This document shows, one piece after another, positions 15,617 through 32,862 of a stretch of DNA of 34,782 bases. Position 1 is the first letter of the stretch, and each line of letters starts with the position of its first letter. Source of the DNA: Nitrospinota bacterium (lineage in GTDB: Bacteria; Nitrospinota; Nitrospinia; Nitrospinales; Nitrospinaceae); NCBI GenBank assembly GCA_029879645.1, contig JAOUPX010000020.1, positions 1 to 34,782 of the forward strand, in the 5' to 3' direction. The translations under genes were made by a program, and so were the position numbers. The notes under the pieces were generated by a model, which saw nothing but the letters and a program-made list of their open reading frames with translations, searched no databases and was not told the DNA's origin.

Positions 15617-18019
15617 ATGGAAAAGACAATGAGTATTTTTAGTTTCGGCAGGAATATATCCCTGAAGTGGAAACAAGTTATGAGTTACTTGTTTGCAGGC
15701 ATGGTACCCCTGATTGTTGTGATGATGATCAGTAGCAATTCGTTTGAGGAAATTCGAACGATGAATGCCTCCAACCTGCAAACCCATGCCCAGAATCTGG
15801 CAGATAAAATAGACCGCAACCTGTTCGAGCGTTATGGCGACGTTCAGGCTTTTGGCCTGAATCAGGTCCTCCTGAACCGTAACTATTGGTATCAGCCGGC
15901 CAGTCCCATTGTCGATGCCATGAACAGTTATGTCGACACCTATGATATTTACTATCTGACGGTCCTGGTCGATTTGGAGGGTAAGGTCATTGCTGTGAAT
16001 TCCAAGGACCAGGATGCCAAGGGGATTAATACCGCCGCCCTATATTCCAAAAACTACTCTAGAACAGATTGGTTTAAAGATGTGATGTCCGGCCGGTTTT
16101 ACACCAGCCAGGAAGGCAACGTGGGCGGGTCCAGCGCCTTCACCGGCACAGCCATTGTCCCTCTTCATATTAATGAAGAAGTGAAAGGTATTTACCGTGG
16201 AGATGACGGACTCACCGTAAATTTTGTCGCTCCGGTATACGACGACGAGGGCAAAGTGATCGCCGTCTGGAACAACTATGCCAAGTTTTCCCTGGTAGAG
16301 GATATTTTCCTTGATGCTTACCGTGACTTGAAAACCAAGGGGCTTGGGGAAATTGAATTGACGCTTCTTAATGAAAACGGAACCGTGGTGATAGATCTGG
16401 ATCCCGCCTTCGGTCGCGGTTCGGAATCAAATATCGCTCATGATTTTGAGGTACTGTTTAAACTGAATCTGGCCGAAAAAGGAGTAACGGCGGCGATCAA
16501 ATCGGCCAAGGAAAAGCAGGTGGGGTTTGAGTATGCCCTGCATGCCCGTAAAAAAATCACCCAGGCCGCCGGTTTTGCCAGGCACAAAGGAGCTCTCGGG
16601 TTTCCCGGTATGCCCTGGTCGGTGTTGGCGCGGGCTCCGGATGCCGTCGTAAACGCCGGCATTATTGCCATTGAAGAAAAATTGTTTCAGGTGGCGATCA
16701 TTTTCGCCGGTATCATCGTGGTTTTCGGTTTCTGGCGATCACGCGCCTTGACGAAGCCCGTTATCAAATTGACCGAGAGTCTGGAAAGCTTTGCCAATGG
16801 TGAATTAAAAAGTTTGGACAATGTGAACGTGTCCAGCGGCGATGAAATCGGTCGTCTGGCCAAATCCTACAACGGCCTTTTGAAAGGAGTCCGGGTATTT
16901 CTTAATCAGGCGGACGATCTTCTGAAAGGCAAAGTCTCTGAGTCACGTAATTTTGGCTTGAAAGGTGAATTTGAAGAAAAACTGCAAAGCATGCATGACA
17001 TTGTGGTCGAGCAAATTGAAAACGATCGCAAGATCAAAGAAGCCAACCAGCGCGAGCTGGCCCAGGCCGAGAAACTGAAGAGTGACGTCAATGAAATGCT
17101 GTCCGTGGTCAACGCCGCCAGCCAGGGCGATTTGACCCGGGAAATCACCATATCCGGCCAGGATGCCATCGGCCAGATGGGCGAGGGCCTGAGCAAATTC
17201 ATCCAGGATCTGCGCGAGAGCATTTCCGACATCAACCGCAACGCCCAGGAACTGGCCGGCGCTTCCCAGCAGTTGACCTCTACCAGTCAGCAGATGGCGA
17301 ACAATGCGGAAGAGACCTCGGCCCAGGCCAATTCGGTTTCCGCCGCTTCCGAGCAGGTCAGCCAGAACGTGGAAACGGTTGCTACCGGTACCGAAGAAAT
17401 GGGCTCCAGCATCAAGGAAATCGCACGCAACGCCACCGAGGCGGCGACGGTTGTTTCGAAGGCGGTGGAAATCACCAAACAAACCAACGAAATGATCCAG
17501 GAGCTGGGAACCAGCAGTACCGAAGTCGGCGACGTCATCAAGGTCATCACCTCGATTGCGGAACAGACCAACCTGCTGGCGTTGAACGCGACCATCGAAG
17601 CGGCGCGTGCCGGTGAAGCGGGCAAGGGCTTTGCGGTGGTGGCCAACGAGGTTAAAGATCTCGCCAACCAGACCGCCCAGGCGACCGAGGATATCAGCAG
17701 GAAGATTCAGGATATCCAGGCTAAAACCACCAGTTCGGTGGAAGCCATTGCCGAGATCACGCAGATCATTCACCAGATCGACGATATCTCGAACACCATT
17801 GCCAGTTCGGTGGAAGAGCAGACGGCGACGACTGCCGAGATCGGACACAATGTCGGTCAGGCCGCCAAGGGCACCGGGGACATCGCGAACAACATCAGCG
17901 GTGTGGCCGATGCGGCAAGAAATACCGCCCAGGGCGCGAGCGAAACCCAGAAAGCCTCGGGTGAGTTGTCACGCATGGCCCTCGAACTGGAAAAAATCGT
18001 TACCCGCTTCAAGATTTAA
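15617..18019 (+). CDS. Methyl-accepting chemotaxis protein 1 (dCache-type sensor)
   Basis: This is an inner-membrane chemoreceptor of 800 residues. It has a short cytoplasmic N-terminus and a membrane segment at about 21-41 ([16 protein letters not shown]). A large periplasmic region of about 300 residues resembles a double-Cache sensor. A second membrane segment is at about 356-373 ([15 protein letters not shown]), then HAMP and a second HAMP-like stretch, then the signalling domain. The hairpin tip [20 protein letters not shown] and [17 protein letters not shown] is canonical. There is no C-terminal CheR-tethering pentapeptide. GAGG lies about 12 bases upstream of ATG. Residues ~478-800 are the same as in chemoreceptor 2. 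The ligand is unknown. Confidence 0.95.
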
Positions 18020-18110: not shown

Positions 18111-18574
18111 GGAATCTCCTGGCGTAAGAATCTACCGGACAGTTTGATAATTTTTATAAAACAATCGTACTTTGTTTATCTTTACCTGGGAAAAACCCTT
18201 TTCTCAAGCTCCGCTCGACGGCCAACCTCAATCACCTACCCGGTTTATGAATAACAAAACCGAATACCTTTTTGAATATTGTAGTGCCAAATCATTTACA
18301 TAGGGCGTCCATAGTTTAGGAATGGCCCATAAAGCCCCAACACGAATATTGGTTGTCCATATAAATCGGAACGCCAATATTTGCTCATTTTTTAAAAATC
18401 AGTGACTTTTACATTGTCTTTTCATTTATATAAATTACACTCAATGTATATGAAATTTAATTTGTTGGGCTAATTTTCTTTAAATGGACCGGATGACATT
18501 GACTGGGGTTGGGGGAAGCAGACCCCAAAAAATTTAATCAACCAAGTATTTTAAAATATATTTATGGAGAGAGC
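18111..18574. other. AT-rich promoter region of chemoreceptor 2
   Basis: This gap has no supported gene. It contains a candidate operator-like inverted repeat, AATATTGG (18345-18352) and CCAATATT (18374-18381), separated by 21 bp, and a smaller CGGTTT/AAACCG hairpin at 18241-18262. No confident promoter hexamers were found. It differs from the region upstream of chemoreceptor 1, so the two genes are probably regulated separately. Confidence 0.45.
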
Positions 18575-21187
18575 ATGAAACCGTTAGATCGCCCGGAAGG
18601 TAGTAGCAGTACTTATGATTCAAAGGATGATGGTTTAAAGTGGACCATTCGAAAAAAACTGGTCACATTATTTTTAATTGCAGGTCTGGTTCCTCTGCTT
18701 TCTTATTCACTGATTTCCATGTCTCGGGTGAATTCCGAAATTCGGGAAATCAGCAAAAGCCGTCTGATTTCATTACGGGACCAGAAAAAACAACAGATCG
18801 AGGATTACTTCAAATTTGTTCAGAATCAGGTTCTCACGTTTTCCGAGGACCACATGGTGATCGATGCCATGAAAGAATTCTCCGGCGCCTGGGATAAGAT
18901 TCTCCCGGAAGTGGGCCACAACTATGGAGAATTGCAGGCCTCCAAATTGAGAGACCGTTACAACTATCAAGTCAAAAGCACCCATGGCGCTGAATCCAGC
19001 TCCTTCAACAAGTGGTTTCCACGGGACCAAACCAGCCAGGTGCTTCAATCTATTTATATTTCTGAAAATAGCAATCCTATTGGAGAAAAACATCGATTGG
19101 ATTATGCGCGGGATGGCAGTTCGTATAGTCAGGCCCATAAACAATTTCATCCCACTATTCGCGATTATCTGGAAAAGTTTGGTTACTACGACATCTTCCT
19201 GGTCGATGCTAAAACCGGTAATGTTGTTTACTCGGTTTATAAGGAAGTTGATTTTGCCACCAGCTTAGTTGATGGTCCTTATTCCGAAAGCGGTATCGGA
19301 AAGGCGTTTAAATCCGCAGTCAGCGCCAGGGATAAAGGCCAATTTTCCATGGTTGATTTCTCAAGCTATGCACCTTCATACAACGGGGCGGCATCCTTTA
19401 TTTCATCTCCCATCTTTGATAATGGAGAGTTGATTGGTGTCCTTATTTTCCAGGCGCCCGTTGATAATATCAATATGACCATGACCAGTAACAATTCCTG
19501 GAAAGAAGTCGGGCTCGGAGATTCCGGTGAGGTATACCTGGTCGGCTCCGATTTTAAAATGAGAAATAACTCTCGATTTTTGATTGAGAATCCCAATGGT
19601 TTTTACGCCATGCTCAAGGAGGTGGGTGTTGCCCAAACGGTAAGCGAGCAAATGAAAGCTCTGGGTACATCCATTGGATTCATGGAAGTAAAAACTCAGG
19701 CAACCGAAAAGGCTCTTCAGGGCGCTACCGGTTTCGATATTATTCCCGACTATAGGGGCGTATCGGTACTCAGCGCCTTTGCGCCGGTAAAAGTTATGGG
19801 TGTGCAGTGGGGCATCATGGCAGAAATTGACAAGGATGAGGCATTTGCCGTCCAGGATTCTCTGATCACCATGTCCCTGATCCTGGCCATCGTGTTAATC
19901 GGTCTCCTCGTTGGATTCGCAATGTTTATAGCAGGCTGGTTTTCCAAGCCGATCCTGGCTTTGTGTAATCGGGCCAGGGAAATTGTAGGCGGGCAGTTGA
20001 GCCAGGAGCCTCTTCGAATAGGAACTACCGATGAGCTGAACCTCCTGGGTAATAATTTCAACACTCTGTTGTCCAGGCTTCAGGGTTTCATTTCAAGCTC
20101 AGAGAATATCCTGAGCGGTAAAGAGACCTCCAGCACAAACTTCAATCAGGAAGGCGATTTCCAAAAATCTCTTGAGGGTATGCTTCAACAGTCCGTTCAA
20201 ATCAAAGAAGCTAACGAGCGCGAGCTGGCCCAGGCCGAGAAATTGAAGAGTGACGTCAATGAAATGCTGTCCGTGGTCAACGCCGCCAGCCAGGGCGATT
20301 TGACCCGGGAAATCACCATATCCGGCCAGGATGCCATCGGCCAGATGGGCGAGGGCCTGAGCAAATTCATCCAGGATCTGCGCGAGAGCATTTCCGACAT
20401 CAACCGCAACGCCCAGGAACTGGCCGGCGCTTCCCAGCAGTTGACCTCTACCAGTCAGCAGATGGCGAACAATGCGGAAGAGACCTCGGCCCAGGCCAAT
20501 TCGGTTTCCGCCGCTTCCGAGCAGGTCAGCCAGAACGTGGAAACGGTTGCTACCGGTACCGAAGAAATGGGCTCCAGCATCAAGGAAATCGCACGCAACG
20601 CCACCGAGGCGGCGACGGTTGTTTCGAAGGCGGTGGAAATCACCAAACAAACCAACGAAATGATCCAGGAGCTGGGAACCAGCAGTACCGAAGTCGGCGA
20701 CGTCATCAAGGTCATCACCTCGATTGCGGAACAGACCAACCTGCTGGCGTTGAACGCGACCATCGAAGCGGCGCGTGCCGGTGAAGCGGGCAAGGGCTTT
20801 GCGGTGGTGGCCAACGAGGTTAAAGATCTCGCCAACCAGACCGCCCAGGCGACCGAGGATATCAGCAGGAAGATTCAGGATATCCAGGCTAAAACCACCA
20901 GTTCGGTGGAAGCCATTGCCGAGATCACGCAGATCATTCACCAGATCGACGATATCTCGAACACCATTGCCAGTTCGGTGGAAGAGCAGACGGCGACGAC
21001 TGCCGAGATCGGACACAATGTCGGTCAGGCCGCCAAGGGCACCGGGGACATCGCGAACAACATCAGCGGTGTGGCCGATGCGGCAAGAAATACCGCCCAG
21101 GGCGCCAGCGAAACCCAGAAAGCCTCGGGTGAGTTGTCACGCATGGCCCTCGAACTGGAGAAAATCGTTACCCGCTTCAAGATTTAA
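18575..21187 (+). CDS. Methyl-accepting chemotaxis protein 2
   Basis: This is a second inner-membrane chemoreceptor, 870 residues from ATG 18575, which has GGAGAG 5-8 bases upstream. An upstream TTG at 18509 would add 22 residues but has no ribosome-binding site. Membrane segments are at about 28-50 ([20 protein letters not shown]) and 428-452 ([20 protein letters not shown]). Between them is a ~370-residue periplasmic sensor, Cache-like, with [20 protein letters not shown] and [24 protein letters not shown] and the signalling domain follow. The last ~323 residues are identical to chemoreceptor 1, while the sensor is different. No CheR pentapeptide is present. Confidence 0.95.
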
Positions 21188-27941: not shown

Positions 27942-28314
27942 GTTAATCCAAAATTCCGATGCGGATGAAACGACATTCTAAGACCTGCTGTCATTTTGTC
28001 AAGGCCGAATTCTATCGGACAAAATCCTCAAAAACCCTTGAAAAACAGCATGTTGAACTATTTACGCTCAAAAGTCAACTGGAACCGCGTCTGTCGATCA
28101 AAAGAGGGAGCGGATGCATGAAAACGGGCACTTTCTGCATTGCGCCGACTCCCCGCCGCCGGTCCTCCCATCGACTCTTCAGCATGAATCTCATTGTTTT
28201 TAGCCGGGTTACAATTATTTTCAGATTCCCTGTCAACCGATTCCCCTCCCGCGCGTTGTACTGGATAACGGCTGCGAATCCGTTAAACTATTTTAAATAT
28301 AAAGGAGAGGTATC
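27942..28314. other. Gap between tRNA-Val and secreted repeat protein
   Basis: This 373-bp divergent intergenic region must hold promoters for tRNA-Val/thrS (minus) and the repeat protein (plus). An open plus frame (27959-28321) has no protein-like character. An inverted repeat TAACGG (28266-28271) / CCGTTA (28280-28285) lies 30 bp before the start codon and could be an operator. A good AAGGAGAGG ribosome-binding site precedes 28315. Confidence 0.45.
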
Positions 28315-28722
28315 ATGTTGAAGAAAACGATATTGGGAGCATTCAGTCTGTTGATCGCCATCCCCGCCACCACCGCCCTGGCCGACGGTCCCGGCCAGAG
28401 AATCGAAAACCGCCTGGATCACCGGGGTGACGTCATTAACCAGCGCCTGGATCAACGCGGCGCGAATATCAATGACCGGCTGGATCAACGCGGATCCAAC
28501 ATCAACGATCGGCTCGACCAGCGGTCCCAGCAGGCTTGGGAGAATGGCAAACCGAGACTGGCCAAACGTCTCGACCGCAAAGGGGACCGGATTGAACGGC
28601 GCCTGGACCGCAAAGGTAATCGCATCGAACGCAGGCTCGACCGCAAAGGCGACCGCATCGACCGGCGCCTCGACCGCAAGGGCAAACGTATTCATCACAG
28701 AATGCACCACCGCGGACATTAA
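28315..28722 (+). CDS. Secreted hendecad (11-residue) repeat protein
   Basis: This 135-residue protein has a signal peptide (residues 1-23, LKKTILGAFSLLIAIPATTALA). The rest is built on an 11-residue repeat of the form xxRLDxxGxxI. Four early copies are Gln/Asn-rich (NDRLDQRGSNI). After a short break (QQAWENGKPRLA) come four strongly basic ones (RRLDRKGDRIE), ending in a His-rich tail. An 11-residue period suits a right-handed or straight coiled coil, with alternating Arg/Asp for salt bridges. I do not recognise a family. It has AAGGAGAGG before the start and its own terminator after, so it is probably a single-gene transcript. Confidence 0.88.
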   Translation: MLKKTILGAFSLLIAIPATTALADGPGQRIENRLDHRGDVINQRLDQRGANINDRLDQRGSNINDRLDQRSQQAWENGKPRLAKRLDRKGDRIERRLDRKGNRIERRLDRKGDRIDRRLDRKGKRIHHRMHHRGH

Positions 28723-28734
28723 GCGGGTTAAAAT

Positions 28735-28772
28735 TCCGGCGGGGGGAGGGTTACCCCTCTGCCGGATTTTTT
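28735..28772 (+). terminator. Terminator after the repeat protein
   Basis: TCCGGC (28735-28740) pairs with GCCGGA (28761-28766), with inner G-rich/C-rich pairing, followed by TTTTTT. It separates the repeat-protein transcript from the sigma-factor module. Confidence 0.85.
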
Positions 28773-28797
28773 ATGTTGAATCTTTTTCAGGAAATGA

Positions 28798-29349
28798 ATG
28801 CGGATGGACCGCCCGGCAATGGACGACTTTCTGGCTACGGTAGAGCGCAAGGCTTTCCGCATGGCCGAGTTCGCCACCCGCAATTCCGATGAGGCATTGG
28901 ACATCGTGCAGGACGCCATGATACGTTTGGTTAAGAACTATGCCGCCAAACCGGAAACGGAATGGCAACCGCTGTTCTACCGGATTCTGCAGAACGGCAT
29001 CCGCGACTGGGCACGTAAAAAAAAGGTGCGCGACCGTTGGGACGGCTTGCGAAACTTATGGCGTGGCGGCAGTGAGGAAAATCGGGAAGACCCGATTCAA
29101 ACCCTGGCCGATCCGCACGGGAAACATCCCGGCGAGCAGGCGGCGCTCAAGGATTCATCCGCCGCGCTGGATACGGCCCTGAAGACCCTGCCCCTGCGGC
29201 AACAGCAGGCGTTTCTCCTGCGCGCCTGGGAAGAAATGAGCGTTGCGGAAACCGCGCAGGCCATGAACTGTTCGGAGGGTTCGGTGAAAACGCATTACTC
29301 CCGCGCCTTGCAGACTCTGCGCGACCTATTGGAAGATCATTGGCCATGA
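28798..29349 (+). CDS. ECF-type RNA polymerase sigma factor
   Basis: This 183-residue group 4 sigma factor redirects RNA polymerase to special promoters. Region 2 is at about 10-75 (AFRMAEFATRNSDEALDIVQ, then DAMIRLVKNY and FYRILQNGIRDWARKKK). Region 4 is at about 125-180 (LPLRQQQAFLLRAWEEMSVA, then CSEGSVKTHYSRALQTLR). AGGA lies just before ATG. The stop overlaps the next start (ATGA). The following genes (a TM protein, a small secreted protein and a DUF3106-like protein) reproduce a module known from Proteobacteria, where the second gene is thought to be the anti-sigma. Confidence 0.93.
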   Translation: MRMDRPAMDDFLATVERKAFRMAEFATRNSDEALDIVQDAMIRLVKNYAAKPETEWQPLFYRILQNGIRDWARKKKVRDRWDGLRNLWRGGSEENREDPIQTLADPHGKHPGEQAALKDSSAALDTALKTLPLRQQQAFLLRAWEEMSVAETAQAMNCSEGSVKTHYSRALQTLRDLLEDHWP

Positions 29350-29708
29350 ACGATCAGGAAAAAGAAAAACAATTTATCGACAACGTCAAAAAGGCGTTGG
29401 ACCTCGATGCGCAGAAACTCGACGCGGGCACGCAATCGAAACTCAACCGCATCCGCCAGAAAGCGCTGGACGCGGGCGAACGAAAGAGTTTCGACATTCG
29501 GCGATGGTTCACTCTGCCGGTAGCGGGCTGGGCGGCCACCGCCTGTCTGATTGTGCTGGGACTGACTCTATATATGAAACCCTCCAATGGAACGCTCCCG
29601 CCGCTGGAAGACATCGACCTGCTGGCCGCGGAAGACAATCTGGAATTTTACGACAGCCTCGAGTTCTACGCCTGGCTGGCCGAGGAAGAAGTCGATGCCG
29701 CCGGGTAA
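29346..29708 (+). CDS. Single-pass membrane protein, DUF3619-like putative anti-sigma factor
   Basis: This is 120 residues from the ATG at 29346, overlapping the sigma stop by 4 bases. A charged cytoplasmic N-terminus (KKALDLDAQKLDAGTQSKLN) precedes one membrane helix at about 57-77 (LPVAGWAATACLIVLGLTLY). The C-terminus is acidic and aromatic (EDNLEFYDSLEFYAWLAEEE). The layout fits DUF3619-type proteins encoded directly after ECF sigma genes, and also fits an anti-sigma factor. That role is inferred from context, since no zinc anti-sigma motif is present. Confidence 0.8.
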   Translation: MNDQEKEKQFIDNVKKALDLDAQKLDAGTQSKLNRIRQKALDAGERKSFDIRRWFTLPVAGWAATACLIVLGLTLYMKPSNGTLPPLEDIDLLAAEDNLEFYDSLEFYAWLAEEEVDAAG

Positions 29709-29943
29709 GGCGACACTGTGGGGCGCGATCTTCCTGCTGGGATGGTTAAGCGGTCCGGCCCTCGCGCAGGAACAGGGCATTGACCCTGCCGGACAGGAGG
29801 ATATGGAAATGCCTTCCCTGGAACTGCTGGAGTTTCTGGGAAACTGGGAAACGGACGACGGCGAATGGATCGATCCGGAAGAAATGGAGCAAATCGCTCT
29901 GGGCGATGAGGAAAAGACGAATGGCGATGCAACACACAAATAA
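29695..29943 (+). CDS. Small secreted acidic protein of the sigma module
   Basis: This 82-residue protein starts at ATG 29695, 14 bp inside the preceding gene, with GAGGAAG upstream. The signal peptide is LWGAIFLLGWLSGPALA. The mature part is strongly acidic and carries SLELLEFLGNWETDDGEWID, a segment I associate with short proteins accompanying such sigma modules. It overlaps the next gene by 23 bp. Its function is unknown. Extreme acidity opposite the very basic DUF3106-like neighbour suggests they could bind each other, which is inference only. Confidence 0.75.
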   Translation: MPPGKATLWGAIFLLGWLSGPALAQEQGIDPAGQEDMEMPSLELLEFLGNWETDDGEWIDPEEMEQIALGDEEKTNGDATHK

Positions 29944-30463
29944 ACTGGCGGCCCTGTTGGGATTTTTTATATGCCTGATGATTGTATCCCCGGCGGGTTG
30001 GGCCCAGCAGTCCGGAGTGCCGTGGGACCGGTTGAGCCCCGACGAACAAAAGGTGTTGCAACCGTTTGCCGACCGTTGGAATCAACTGCCGCCGGACAAA
30101 CAGGCGCACCTGCAAAAAGGTGCGAACCGCTGGCGCAACCTCACCCCAGACCAGCGCCGCAACATGAAACAAAGGATGAAAACCTGGCAACAGATGACAC
30201 CGGATCAGCGCCAGCGGGTCCGGAGAAAGTTCGAACACTTCAGCAAACTGCCGCCTGAAGAACGCAAACAACTGCGCCGCTCCCGCCAATGGTTCAACAA
30301 CCTGCCGCCGGAAAAAAAACAGCGACTGCAAAAACGCTGGCGCAATATGCCGCCTGAACAACGCAAACAATTCCTGAAACGCCAGCACCCCAGGCAGTCC
30401 ATGCAACGCAAACATCGCAACATGACACACCAGCCACCGCGACAACAAAGCCGCCACCGGTAA
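29921..30463 (+). CDS. Secreted DUF3106-like basic repeat protein
   Basis: This is about 180 residues from ATG 29921 (GAGGA 8 bases upstream; ATG 29906 or 29927 are alternatives). The signal peptide is KLAALLGFFICLMIVSPAGWA. The mature protein is a series of W/L-x-LP/TPDQR units, such as NQLPPDKQ, RNLTPDQRR, QQMTPDQRQ, SKLPPEERK, NNLPPEKKQ and RNMPPEQRK, which is the pattern of DUF3106. It is very basic (Arg/Lys/Gln) and ends in a His/Arg-rich tail. DUF3106 genes commonly follow ECF sigma/DUF3619 pairs, and the role is probably envelope stress related. Confidence 0.85.
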   Translation: MAMQHTNKLAALLGFFICLMIVSPAGWAQQSGVPWDRLSPDEQKVLQPFADRWNQLPPDKQAHLQKGANRWRNLTPDQRRNMKQRMKTWQQMTPDQRQRVRRKFEHFSKLPPEERKQLRRSRQWFNNLPPEKKQRLQKRWRNMPPEQRKQFLKRQHPRQSMQRKHRNMTHQPPRQQSRHR

Positions 30464-30500: not shown

Positions 30501-30693
30501 AGACCTTTGCATAATTAATATTAATGAGGTCAGGATTCTTCCCCTCCTTACGAAGGAGGGGATACAGGGGAGGTTATGGTGCCCCTTTCCTTGCATTAAA
30601 AGGTTTTTGCCTTGTTACGAAACCCGCACCCCACCTGTATCCTCCCCTCAGCAAGGGGAGGAATATTGAAAGGCGGTTGTTATACAAAGGTCT
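30501..30693. mobile_element. 193-bp MITE-like element with AGACCTTTGYATAA ends
   Basis: Terminal inverted repeats are AGACCTTTGCATAA (30501-30514) and, on the opposite strand, AGACCTTTGTATAA (30693-30680). Internal inverted arms carry CCCCTCCTTACGAAGGAGGG (30541-30560) and, in inverse orientation, CCTCCCCTCAGCAAGGGGAG (30641-30660). There is no ORF of note. A partial relative lies at 32655-32708 and a TIR relative at 24403-24579. The ends recall TIRs of some IS5-type elements from memory, which is unverified. Confidence 0.7.
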
Positions 30694-30733
30694 ACATGAT
30701 GAATGCAGTTGTGCCCTGCCTGCGGGGAGCCGG

Positions 30734-31708
30734 TTAATTTTCTTTTTCTTTTATCTTGAGGGCAATGGGAAAATGATCGCTGAACCCCTCATCATCGAAA
30801 CCGGATTTAGAGGGCCGTCCGAAACGCCGTGGTACCTTAAACTTTCCTTTCACCATATCGTCGAACTGGATCACTGTCACGGACTGGTCGACCACCGAGA
30901 ACGCTCCGCTTTTGGCCAGAAACCCTTTCGACACCAAAAACTGATCCAGCATGCTGGGAAAATTATTATGATAATAAGAGGGCGTATCCATCAGCGGCCA
31001 CATCAAATTCAGCAGACGGGGAGCCACAGTGGAACTCGATACCTTCTTCCGACTTCGGGTACTCAAGGCGTAGTCGGTCATGGAGCGGTGGAACGGTTCG
31101 TCGTTAAAATCTCCCATTACCAGAATCGGTACATCTCGTCCCTTGTTTTCATGAATGCGTAAATTCCAATAAGCCAGCGTTTCCCCTGCGACAATGCGGT
31201 AGGGCTCGGTTTCATATTGGCCGCTCATTCGAGACGGCCAGTGATTGCCCACCACTATCAAGTCGTTGTTGCCGGATTTGGTCAGGAAGTTGACCTGAAA
31301 CAGATCGCGGGTGGAGGAACGTTTGATCACCTCATGGGAAAAGATTTTATCGGTTTTGAATTTCCTGCCGTCATAAATAAAAGCGATGTCGATGCCCCGC
31401 ATGTCCTTTGTATTCTGGTGCGCGACTTTATAATCCCGCGCCGGCACATTGAGCGTCAGGATCAGCTGGTCCAGCACCCTTTGGTTTTCAATTTCGCAGA
31501 CTCCCAGAATATCGGGCCCCAGGCCATCATTCATTCTTTCAATCACAGACGCCAGTTGTTTCAGTTTTTTGTTCAAAACTGCTTGCGTCCATCCTTTGAG
31601 CTCACTCTTCAGAGATTTCTGTAAATGCTCGGGACGGTCCGGGCCACCGGTATTGGCAACATCGAACAAGTTCTCAACATTCCACCAGGCAATATAGTAA
31701 GTCGGCAT
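30734..31708 (-). CDS. Endonuclease/exonuclease/phosphatase (EEP) family protein
   Basis: This 324-residue metal-dependent phosphohydrolase has the DNase I-like fold. The family motifs are in order: IAWWNVENLFD near the N-terminus, DILGVCEIENQRVLD (metal-binding Glu), RGIDIAFIYD, VVGNHWPSRMSG (catalytic His), VMGDFNDEP (Asp/Asn) and FSDHFPIAL (final Asp-His). No signal peptide is visible, so it should be cytoplasmic. GAGGAGG lies about 8 bases before ATG. The substrate (nucleic acid, phospholipid or sugar phosphate) cannot be told. It lies next to the tRNA-Asn element but outside its repeats. Confidence 0.92.
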   Translation of the reverse strand: MPTYYIAWWNVENLFDVANTGGPDRPEHLQKSLKSELKGWTQAVLNKKLKQLASVIERMNDGLGPDILGVCEIENQRVLDQLILTLNVPARDYKVAHQNTKDMRGIDIAFIYDGRKFKTDKIFSHEVIKRSSTRDLFQVNFLTKSGNNDLIVVGNHWPSRMSGQYETEPYRIVAGETLAYWNLRIHENKGRDVPILVMGDFNDEPFHRSMTDYALSTRSRKKVSSSTVAPRLLNLMWPLMDTPSYYHNNFPSMLDQFLVSKGFLAKSGAFSVVDQSVTVIQFDDMVKGKFKVPRRFGRPSKSGFDDEGFSDHFPIALKIKEKEN

Positions 31709-31864: not shown

Positions 31865-31920
31865 AAAAAAACCCGCCTCCCTTTTGGGGATGGCGGGTTT
31901 TATATTCTGGCTCCGGAGAC
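31865..31920. repeat. 56-bp perfect direct repeat, distal copy (attachment-site-like)
   Basis: This copy is identical to 32745-32800 and 880 bp away from it. Read on the minus strand it contains the last 13 bases of tRNA-Asn, including the encoded CCA, and the hairpin terminator that follows the tRNA. The rest of the tRNA is absent here. This is the arrangement left by integration at a tRNA 3' end. Confidence 0.95.
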
Positions 31921-31960
31921 CAACCGCGTACTGCGAAATACCTGTAATTTTCCCTGACAT

Positions 31961-31996
31961 TTGACTAATGTATATGGGTATCATATACTTATTTTA
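31961..31996 (+). promoter_or_regulatory. brnT promoter with overlapping palindromic operator
   Basis: -35 TTGACT (31961-31966), a 17-bp spacer and -10 TATACT (31984-31989) form a near-consensus sigma-70 promoter. A perfect palindrome GTATATG-GGTAT-CATATAC (31970-31988) covers the spacer and most of the -10, ideal for repression by the BrnA antitoxin. The brnT ATG (31996) is 7 bases after the -10, where transcription should begin, so the mRNA is predicted to be leaderless. Confidence 0.85.
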
Positions 31997-32313
31997 TGGA
32001 TACCCATGACCTCTTGCGGAAATGTACCGGGTTTGAGTGGGACGAGCACAACACTGATAAAAACTGGCAAAAGCATCAAGTAACTTCATCCGAGTGCGAG
32101 GAGGTATTCTTCAACCGGCCTCTGGCGGTTGCGGATGATGTCAGACATTCTGAGAAGGAAAATCGTTTTTATGCTCTGGGGAATACAAACGCCGGAAGGT
32201 TTCTTTTTGTGGTCTTTACCATCCGCAGGAGTCAGGTCCGTGTCATTTCGGCAAGGGACATGAACCGGAAAGAGAGAAAGGTATATCAATCCCATGAAGA
32301 AGAGAGTTCCTGA
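31996..32313 (+). CDS. brnT: BrnT-type ribonuclease toxin
   Basis: This 105-residue type II toxin cleaves RNA and is neutralised by BrnA. The family pattern is visible: FEWDEHNTDKNWQKHQVTSS, then FFNRPLAVADD, RFYALGNTNAGRFLFVVFTI, and RVISARDMNRKERKVY. There is no ribosome-binding site because the predicted transcript starts at or next to the ATG. It overlaps brnA by 20 bp, the usual toxin-first order of this family. It sits inside the repeat-bounded segment at tRNA-Asn. Confidence 0.9.
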   Translation: MDTHDLLRKCTGFEWDEHNTDKNWQKHQVTSSECEEVFFNRPLAVADDVRHSEKENRFYALGNTNAGRFLFVVFTIRRSQVRVISARDMNRKERKVYQSHEEESS

Positions 32314-32563
32314 GTTCAAAAGCGAAGACGAGGAGAGGAAGTTCTGGGCAACCCGCGACTCGACCGAGTACGTGGACTGGAAGAAGGCCAAACGGGTCGT
32401 CCTGCCCGAGCTTAAGCCCTCACTCAAGACCATATCCCTCAGGCTTCCTGAATCCATGCTTGAGGAACTCAAACTTCTGGCCCATAAGAAGGATGTTCCT
32501 TATCAGTCGCTCCTCAAGATATTCCTGTCAGAAAAAATCCGGGAAGAGTTAAAGGCGCAGTGA
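32294..32563 (+). CDS. brnA: BrnA-type antitoxin (ribbon-helix-helix)
   Basis: This 89-residue antitoxin and autorepressor has an N-terminal toxin-binding part with FWATRDSTEYVDWKKAKRVV. It is followed by a CopG-like ribbon-helix-helix segment LKTISLRLPESMLEELKLLA and then VPYQSLLKIFLSEKIREEL. It starts within the end of brnT (AAGAG upstream). The 19-bp palindrome over the brnT promoter is its likely operator. Confidence 0.9.
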   Translation: MKKRVPEFKSEDEERKFWATRDSTEYVDWKKAKRVVLPELKPSLKTISLRLPESMLEELKLLAHKKDVPYQSLLKIFLSEKIREELKAQ

Positions 32564-32654
32564 GCCTGAACAATAACCCTCCTCCTTTTAAACTGCGCCC
32601 AGAGATTACCGCCTGAGGTCAACCGACAGCATTTTTACCGTCCCTTTGGAAAGA

Positions 32655-32708
32655 AGAGCTTTATACCCGGCTTTCAATATTCCTCCCTTTGCTGAAGGAG
32701 GGGGATTA
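32655..32708. mobile_element. Fragment of the AGACCTTTG MITE family
   Basis: AGAGCTTTATACCCGG followed by CTTTCAATATTCCTCCCTTT and GCTGAAGGAGG matches, with small gaps, the inverse of the right end of the element at 30501-30693. Only one end is present, so the copy is truncated. It lies between brnA and the proximal direct repeat. Confidence 0.6.
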
Positions 32709-32744
32709 TCATAAATTCTCCCACCGGTAACCGTCCCGGGCAAT

Positions 32745-32784
32745 AAAAAAACCCGCCTCCCTTTTGGGGATGGCGGGTTTTATA
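32745..32784 (-). terminator. Terminator of tRNA-Asn
   Basis: On the minus strand ACCCGCC and GGCGGGT pair, with inner TCCCC/GGGA, followed by a T-run. The hairpin is also flanked by T on the plus side, so it may work both ways. The same sequence is duplicated at 31865-31904. Confidence 0.85.
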
Positions 32785-32800
32785 TTCTGGCTCCGGAGAC
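32745..32800. repeat. 56-bp perfect direct repeat, tRNA-proximal copy
   Basis: This is the partner of 31865-31920. On the minus strand it runs from the T-stem end and acceptor strand of tRNA-Asn through CCA into the terminator hairpin ACCCGCC...GGCGGGT with its T-run (32745-32784). Here it is joined to the complete tRNA. Confidence 0.95.
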
Positions 32801-32862
32801 AGGACTCGAACCTGTAACATTTCGGTTAACAGCCGAATGCTCTACCATTGAGCTACTCCGGA
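32788..32862 (-). tRNA. tRNA-Asn (anticodon GTT)
   Basis: On the minus strand acceptor TCCGGAG pairs with CTCCGGA, the D arm is GCTC-AATGGTA-GAGC, the anticodon stem TTCGG/CCGAA has loop CTGTTAA (anticodon GTT), and the T arm is ACAGG-TTCGAGT-CCTGT. The discriminator G is followed by encoded CCA (32790-32788). Its 3' end forms part of the direct repeat bounding the brnTA segment. Confidence 0.96.

Follow-up and report, generated by a model that had tools for sequence, protein, structure and literature searches.

A small brnTA segment between att-like repeats at the 3' end of a tRNA-Asn gene in a Nitrospinota bacterium

Known elements at tRNA genes and the brnTA locus

Additive flexible genomic islands, described in Ca. 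Actinomarinales (PMC7771536) and, as fGI-2, in the Methylophilaceae (PMC10872708), consist, according to the sections of these papers that deal with them, of foreign genes located at a tRNA gene and accompanied by direct repeats that match the end of this gene. In the Methylophilaceae account, the repeats correspond to the last 20 nt of tRNA-Lys, and the islands range from 330 bp to 42 kb (PMC10872708). Tycheposons, as they are described in the same paper, are elements of 4-200 kb with a tyrosine recombinase. CIMEs (cis-mobilizable elements) are decayed ICEs or IMEs that keep attL and attR and have lost their integration and transfer genes (PMC5704250), and Islander-type islands are integrase-encoding islands at tRNA and tmRNA genes, for which Islander distinguishes three crossover subsites, one of which lies at the T-stem/acceptor-stem junction (PMC4383910).

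Here, we analyzed a stretch of 34,782 nucleotides (the window), which is the whole of contig C134 in the draft genome of a Nitrospinota bacterium (G000; 3.2 Mb, 215 contigs), and compared it with other genomes of the same genus (G001 and following numbers). The repeat junction described below rests on one assembly. The features of the locus are the following:

28200-30424, plus strand: ECF sigma factor operon block, the ancestral flank, which directly follows tRNA-Asn in empty-site relatives (blastn to G001-G004, G006, and G007)
30734-31708, minus strand: endonuclease/exonuclease/phosphatase gene (PF19580), just outside the outer repeat and absent from all other genus members
31865-31920, minus strand: outer (distal), attR-like 56-bp copy, comprising the displaced 13-nt tRNA 3' end and terminator, 100% identical to the inner copy
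31921-32744, no strand: cargo segment of 824 bp between the repeats; brnT in 0 of 7 same-genus relatives
31961-31989, plus strand: promoter-like -35/-10 site (TTGACT-17-TATACT) over the palindrome GTATAT..ATATAC, from a consensus scan in which about 1 such site is expected by chance
31996-32313, plus strand: brnT, 105 aa, ribonuclease toxin of a type II toxin-antitoxin (TA) pair (PF04365, E 6e-27; PDB toxin 7vd7, E 4e-6)
32294-32563, plus strand: brnA, 89 aa, CopG-type antitoxin, overlapping brnT (PF12441, E 5e-34; NCBIfam BrnA below cut-off)
32641-32698 (about), plus strand: repeat unit of REP/MITE type within the tail of the cassette; at least 11 further matches in G000
32745-32800, minus strand: inner (tRNA-proximal), attL-like 56-bp copy, comprising the last 13 nt of tRNA-Asn and the terminator (repeat search; hairpin on both strands)
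32788-32862, minus strand: intact tRNA-Asn(GTT), the target gene (ARAGORN; Rfam tRNA, 75.4 bits)

The two 56-bp copies form a 100% identical direct repeat with a start-to-start distance of 880 bp, the sole strong direct repeat in a search of the region from 30.5 to 34.8 kb. A chance origin of the pair is excluded, because its BLAST E value is about 1e-27, whereas matches with E<=1e-5 are rare at control positions. The rest of the genome holds no further copy, and a dispersed repeat carrying the terminator is rejected on the ground that the 56-mer occurs only twice genome-wide. Read along the tRNA, the 56-mer opens with the last 13 nt of tRNA-Asn (GTCTCCGGAGCCA), which cover the final two T-stem bases, the 3' strand of the acceptor stem, the discriminator base, and the CCA end, and it continues with 43 nt of downstream sequence. 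Whichever strand is read, this tail is predicted to fold into a terminator-like hairpin with T runs (-23 to -25 kcal/mol; z-scores of about -4.4 to -5.3). The inner copy runs on into the intact tRNA-Asn gene, and the outer copy holds the tRNA tail and terminator only. These findings confirm a preliminary description of the locus, which had reported a perfect repeat with one copy fused to an intact tRNA-Asn gene and the other reduced to the last 13 bases and the terminator.

The same description had placed brnT and brnA, a MITE fragment, and no integrase between the repeats. The Pfam matches confirm the gene pair, and there is no integrase gene among the open reading frames of the interval 31921-32744. 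The REP/MITE-like unit is also present, although its truncation is uncertain, since its tail looks like that repeat in a shorter version; this family, which includes sequences at 30520-30700, has at least 11 further matches in G000 and one each in two relatives. The BrnT toxin and the BrnA antitoxin are encoded in one operon, and the overlapping genes with their own promoter resemble known BrnTA type II systems, from which the pair differs in location alone. The palindrome is a probable BrnA operator, and the palindrome and promoter region is shared with foreign brnTA modules from position 31961 onward.

The gene brnT is absent from all seven other genus members, its best relative is found in a Nitrospirota MAG (79% amino acid identity), and its nearest relatives belong to other groups. 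At the DNA level, similarity to foreign brnTA modules is limited to the operon (31961-32564). By these sequence relationships, the operon is shown to be foreign to the lineage, as is the content of additive-island cassettes at tRNA genes. Linkage to tRNA genes is not a general property of brnTA: a tRNA lies at 5 of the 87 loci with brnT relatives, one of them being the G000 locus itself, and no donor locus in which brnTA comes after tRNA-Asn was found among them. A virus source is rejected, with neither an attP-like match nor a BrnT relative in viral contigs, no viral contig bearing an attP with the same repeat, and no BrnT relative in phages; so is a plasmid source, all BrnT relatives on plasmids having less than 60% identity.

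By analogy, the segment fits the tRNA-flanked, integrase-free cassettes known from marine bacteria, or CIMEs, and is notable for its small size. It shares with additive-island cassettes, as described in the relevant sections, foreign genes at a tRNA, repeats of the tRNA end, and a site that is empty or otherwise filled in relatives; their sizes reach down to 330 bp and 1 CDS, they grow by successive insertion (compare tRNA-Asp of G006, below), and those sections name no linked integrase for them. It differs from them in the organism, in a repeat that includes the whole terminator, and in having a TA pair as its only cargo. As in CIMEs (PMC5704250), attL- and attR-like copies are kept, integration and transfer genes are absent, the target gene is restored, and tandem cases occur; however, no related ICE or IME was found at tRNA-Asn in the relatives, nor an autonomous one with the same att site, and the segment is very small (0.88 kb). 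With Islander-type islands (PMC4383910), it has in common an intact tRNA gene, a displaced 3' fragment that lies downstream and points the same way, and a repeat whose 13-nt boundary matches subsite J, but there is no tyrosine integrase between its repeats and its 880 bp fall short of the 2-200 kb length range, so that the database filters would reject it. Tycheposons likewise have tRNA-flanked cargo, according to their description in PMC10872708, but the segment has neither their 4-200 kb size nor their tyrosine recombinase.

Empty and occupied tRNA-Asn sites in the genus

In G001, G003, G004, and G006, tRNA-Asn is followed by a single terminator copy and then by the conserved sigma block, which starts 117-266 bp beyond the tRNA gene. 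G007 also has one terminator copy, with the sigma block at +752 and about 600 bp of extra sequence in between; no second terminator copy was found. This extra sequence (+40 to +750 after tRNA-Asn) has partial similarity to a repeat-rich protein gene at 28315-28722 of the window. A single copy in the relatives supports one terminator copy as the ancestral state and an insertion in the G000 window. Simple tandem duplication of the terminator is rejected, given single-copy relatives and foreign intervening DNA.

At the same tRNA-Asn, G002 carries an unrelated 3.0-kb insertion with genes for a PepSY-like protein, a response regulator, and a histidine kinase, as named from their sequences alone. 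At its outer end, a decayed stretch of 31 nt from the 3' half of the tRNA precedes another copy of the terminator (34 identical bp), beyond which the flank resembles, by eye, that of the empty site in G004. In a genus tree built from thrS, infC, recR, and the sigma operon, G002 and the empty G004 are grouped at 99% UFBoot, and for G000 and G002 as sisters the AU p value is about 0.04 (1000 replicates). Because the nearest relative of G002 has an empty site, the simplest view is that G000 and G002 acquired their insertions independently; a common ancestral insertion is disfavored by the tree and by the differing contents. The empty sites anticipated in the preliminary description thus exist in four relatives, and its reading of the locus as an insertion at a tRNA 3' end with an att-like duplication is strengthened by them and by the unrelated insertion in G002.

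In G000, the outer copy and the ancestral block are separated by 1.4 kb, which contain the endonuclease/exonuclease/phosphatase gene and a longer REP/MITE-like unit. Because the ancestral block does not directly follow the outer copy, the locus took up foreign DNA at least twice, or else once as a larger piece that had an att-like copy inside it, and the 880-bp unit may be one component, the inner one, of an insertion that was larger or took place in two steps.

Two further observations concern the remainder of the window. A rearrangement breakpoint is likely at 27942-28200: in G000, a distance of 5 kb separates tRNA-Asn from thrS and tRNA-Val, which share its orientation, and in G001 and G006, thrS is 64-70 kb from tRNA-Asn on the same contig and in the opposite relative orientation. 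Adjacent chemoreceptor-like genes at 15617-18019 and 18509-21187 have nearly identical C-terminal halves, suggesting a recent duplication or gene conversion.

Integrase-free segments at other tRNA genes and the search for a recombinase

We searched the sequence downstream of about 160 tRNA genes, from four genomes, for further copies of the tRNA 3' end. In a comparison with controls, matches with E<=1e-5 were obtained for 11/141 3' ends, several of which reflect terminator or tRNA-cluster similarity and not insertions, compared to 2/141 5' ends and 1/279 random positions. Hence, duplication is commoner at tRNA 3' ends than at 5' ends or at random positions. Downstream of tRNA-Asp in G006 (contig C40), a 41-bp, 97.6% identical copy is located at +2035, with one histidine kinase gene in the intervening 2.0 kb, and a third copy, which begins 12 nt before the tRNA end, exactly as in the window, follows after another 6.6 kb (+8645). 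The conserved flank begins at this third copy, leaving two tandem integrase-free segments, and the 6.6-kb block appears, by eye, to encode transglutaminase-like, ATP-grasp-like, and channel proteins. At tRNA-Lys of G000 (contig C120), a decayed 35-nt copy of the 3' half lies 7.2 kb downstream (+7205), and the genes in between resemble, upon reading of their sequences, a dab-type set for inorganic-carbon uptake (NDH5-like, large DUF2309-like, and PII-like). Between the copies at tRNA-Asn of G002, tRNA-Asp of G006, and tRNA-Lys of G000, neither an integrase nor a recognized TA pair was seen.

G000 encodes four tyrosine recombinases (C38, C54, C152, and C155), one beside tRNA-Glu and none linked to tRNA-Asn. 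Directly after tRNA-Glu (contig C54), complete and shortened tyrosine integrase-like genes are arranged in tandem, marking a conventional island. No homologues of the integrases of the genus were found downstream of tRNA-Asn in 20 relatives, for which up to about 10 kb was available; an integrase-bearing island at tRNA-Asn, or any larger island with the same repeat, was likewise not seen within this range. Inspection by eye gave no convincing match to integron attC or Xer dif-like sites.

Origin of the segment and its significance

We regard it as likely that the brnTA segment represents an integrase-less tRNA cassette of minimal size, brought to the 3' end of the tRNA gene by site-specific integration. 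Incoming DNA bearing a tRNA-Asn 3' end and terminator would have undergone a crossover with the tRNA-Asn gene already present, at the T-stem/acceptor-stem junction, so that the tRNA was rebuilt on one side and the old 3' end and terminator came to lie on the other. The enzyme responsible, presumably a tyrosine integrase, would no longer be linked, having either been deleted or acted in trans, and the product would be the foreign brnTA operon and its promoter, left between att-like copies. The 13-nt boundary of the repeat argues for this route, since it falls at a known crossover subsite. The tyrosine integrase, a circular intermediate, and any present mobility of the segment are what we infer from the arrangement, and a cassette moved in trans and a remnant of a larger island both fit it.

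Homologous or illegitimate recombination, in which a foreign fragment with a related tRNA-Asn tail and terminator (for example, from a relative with brnTA after tRNA-Asn) entered by a Campbell-type crossover and needed no site-specific recombinase, is an unlikely alternative with some points in its favor: a recombinase is linked to none of the four to five cases, the whole terminator in the duplicated part offers ready homology, and the extents of the repeats vary among cases. However, RecA-dependent integration usually needs more homology than 56 bp, the loci of brnT relatives revealed no donor in which brnTA comes after tRNA-Asn, and a similar 3'-end boundary recurs at two tRNAs of the genus.

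A special case of the integrase-less cassette, and compatible with it, would be a larger tRNA-Asn island pared down to the TA pair, whose loss would be lethal. The brnTA pair looks intact, with a promoter and an operator-like palindrome, and the island SGI1 is, by analogy, reportedly maintained by a TA pair (work cited in PMC5704250, as summarized there). Nevertheless, we judge this course of events improbable: no larger version was seen at tRNA-Asn within up to about 10 kb in 20 relatives, and retention by toxin addiction, possible but unsupported, is weakened because the comparable segments at tRNA-Asn of G002, tRNA-Asp of G006, and tRNA-Lys of G000 persist without a recognized TA pair.

That the 56-bp repeat, which has the size of common assembly k-mers, misjoined two contigs of a 215-contig draft is highly improbable, as the repeat family in the cassette tail, abundant in G000 and rare in relatives, ties the cassette to this genome, and the same architecture is present in other assemblies (G002 and G006).

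In a more far-reaching reading, the genus would possess a class of cassettes that are all very small and free of an integrase and that a tRNA-specific recombinase moves in trans at tRNA 3' ends and terminators, with the brnTA unit as a self-maintaining TA cassette of this class; we put this forward as a speculation with a small chance of being correct. What the genus does contain is four to five integrase-free tRNA segments, including two at tRNA-Asn that apparently arose independently, and these cases supply att sites for seeking a recombinase that acts in trans. Because standard island finders reject such elements for their size and missing integrase, the share of gene gain due to such cassettes is probably underestimated.
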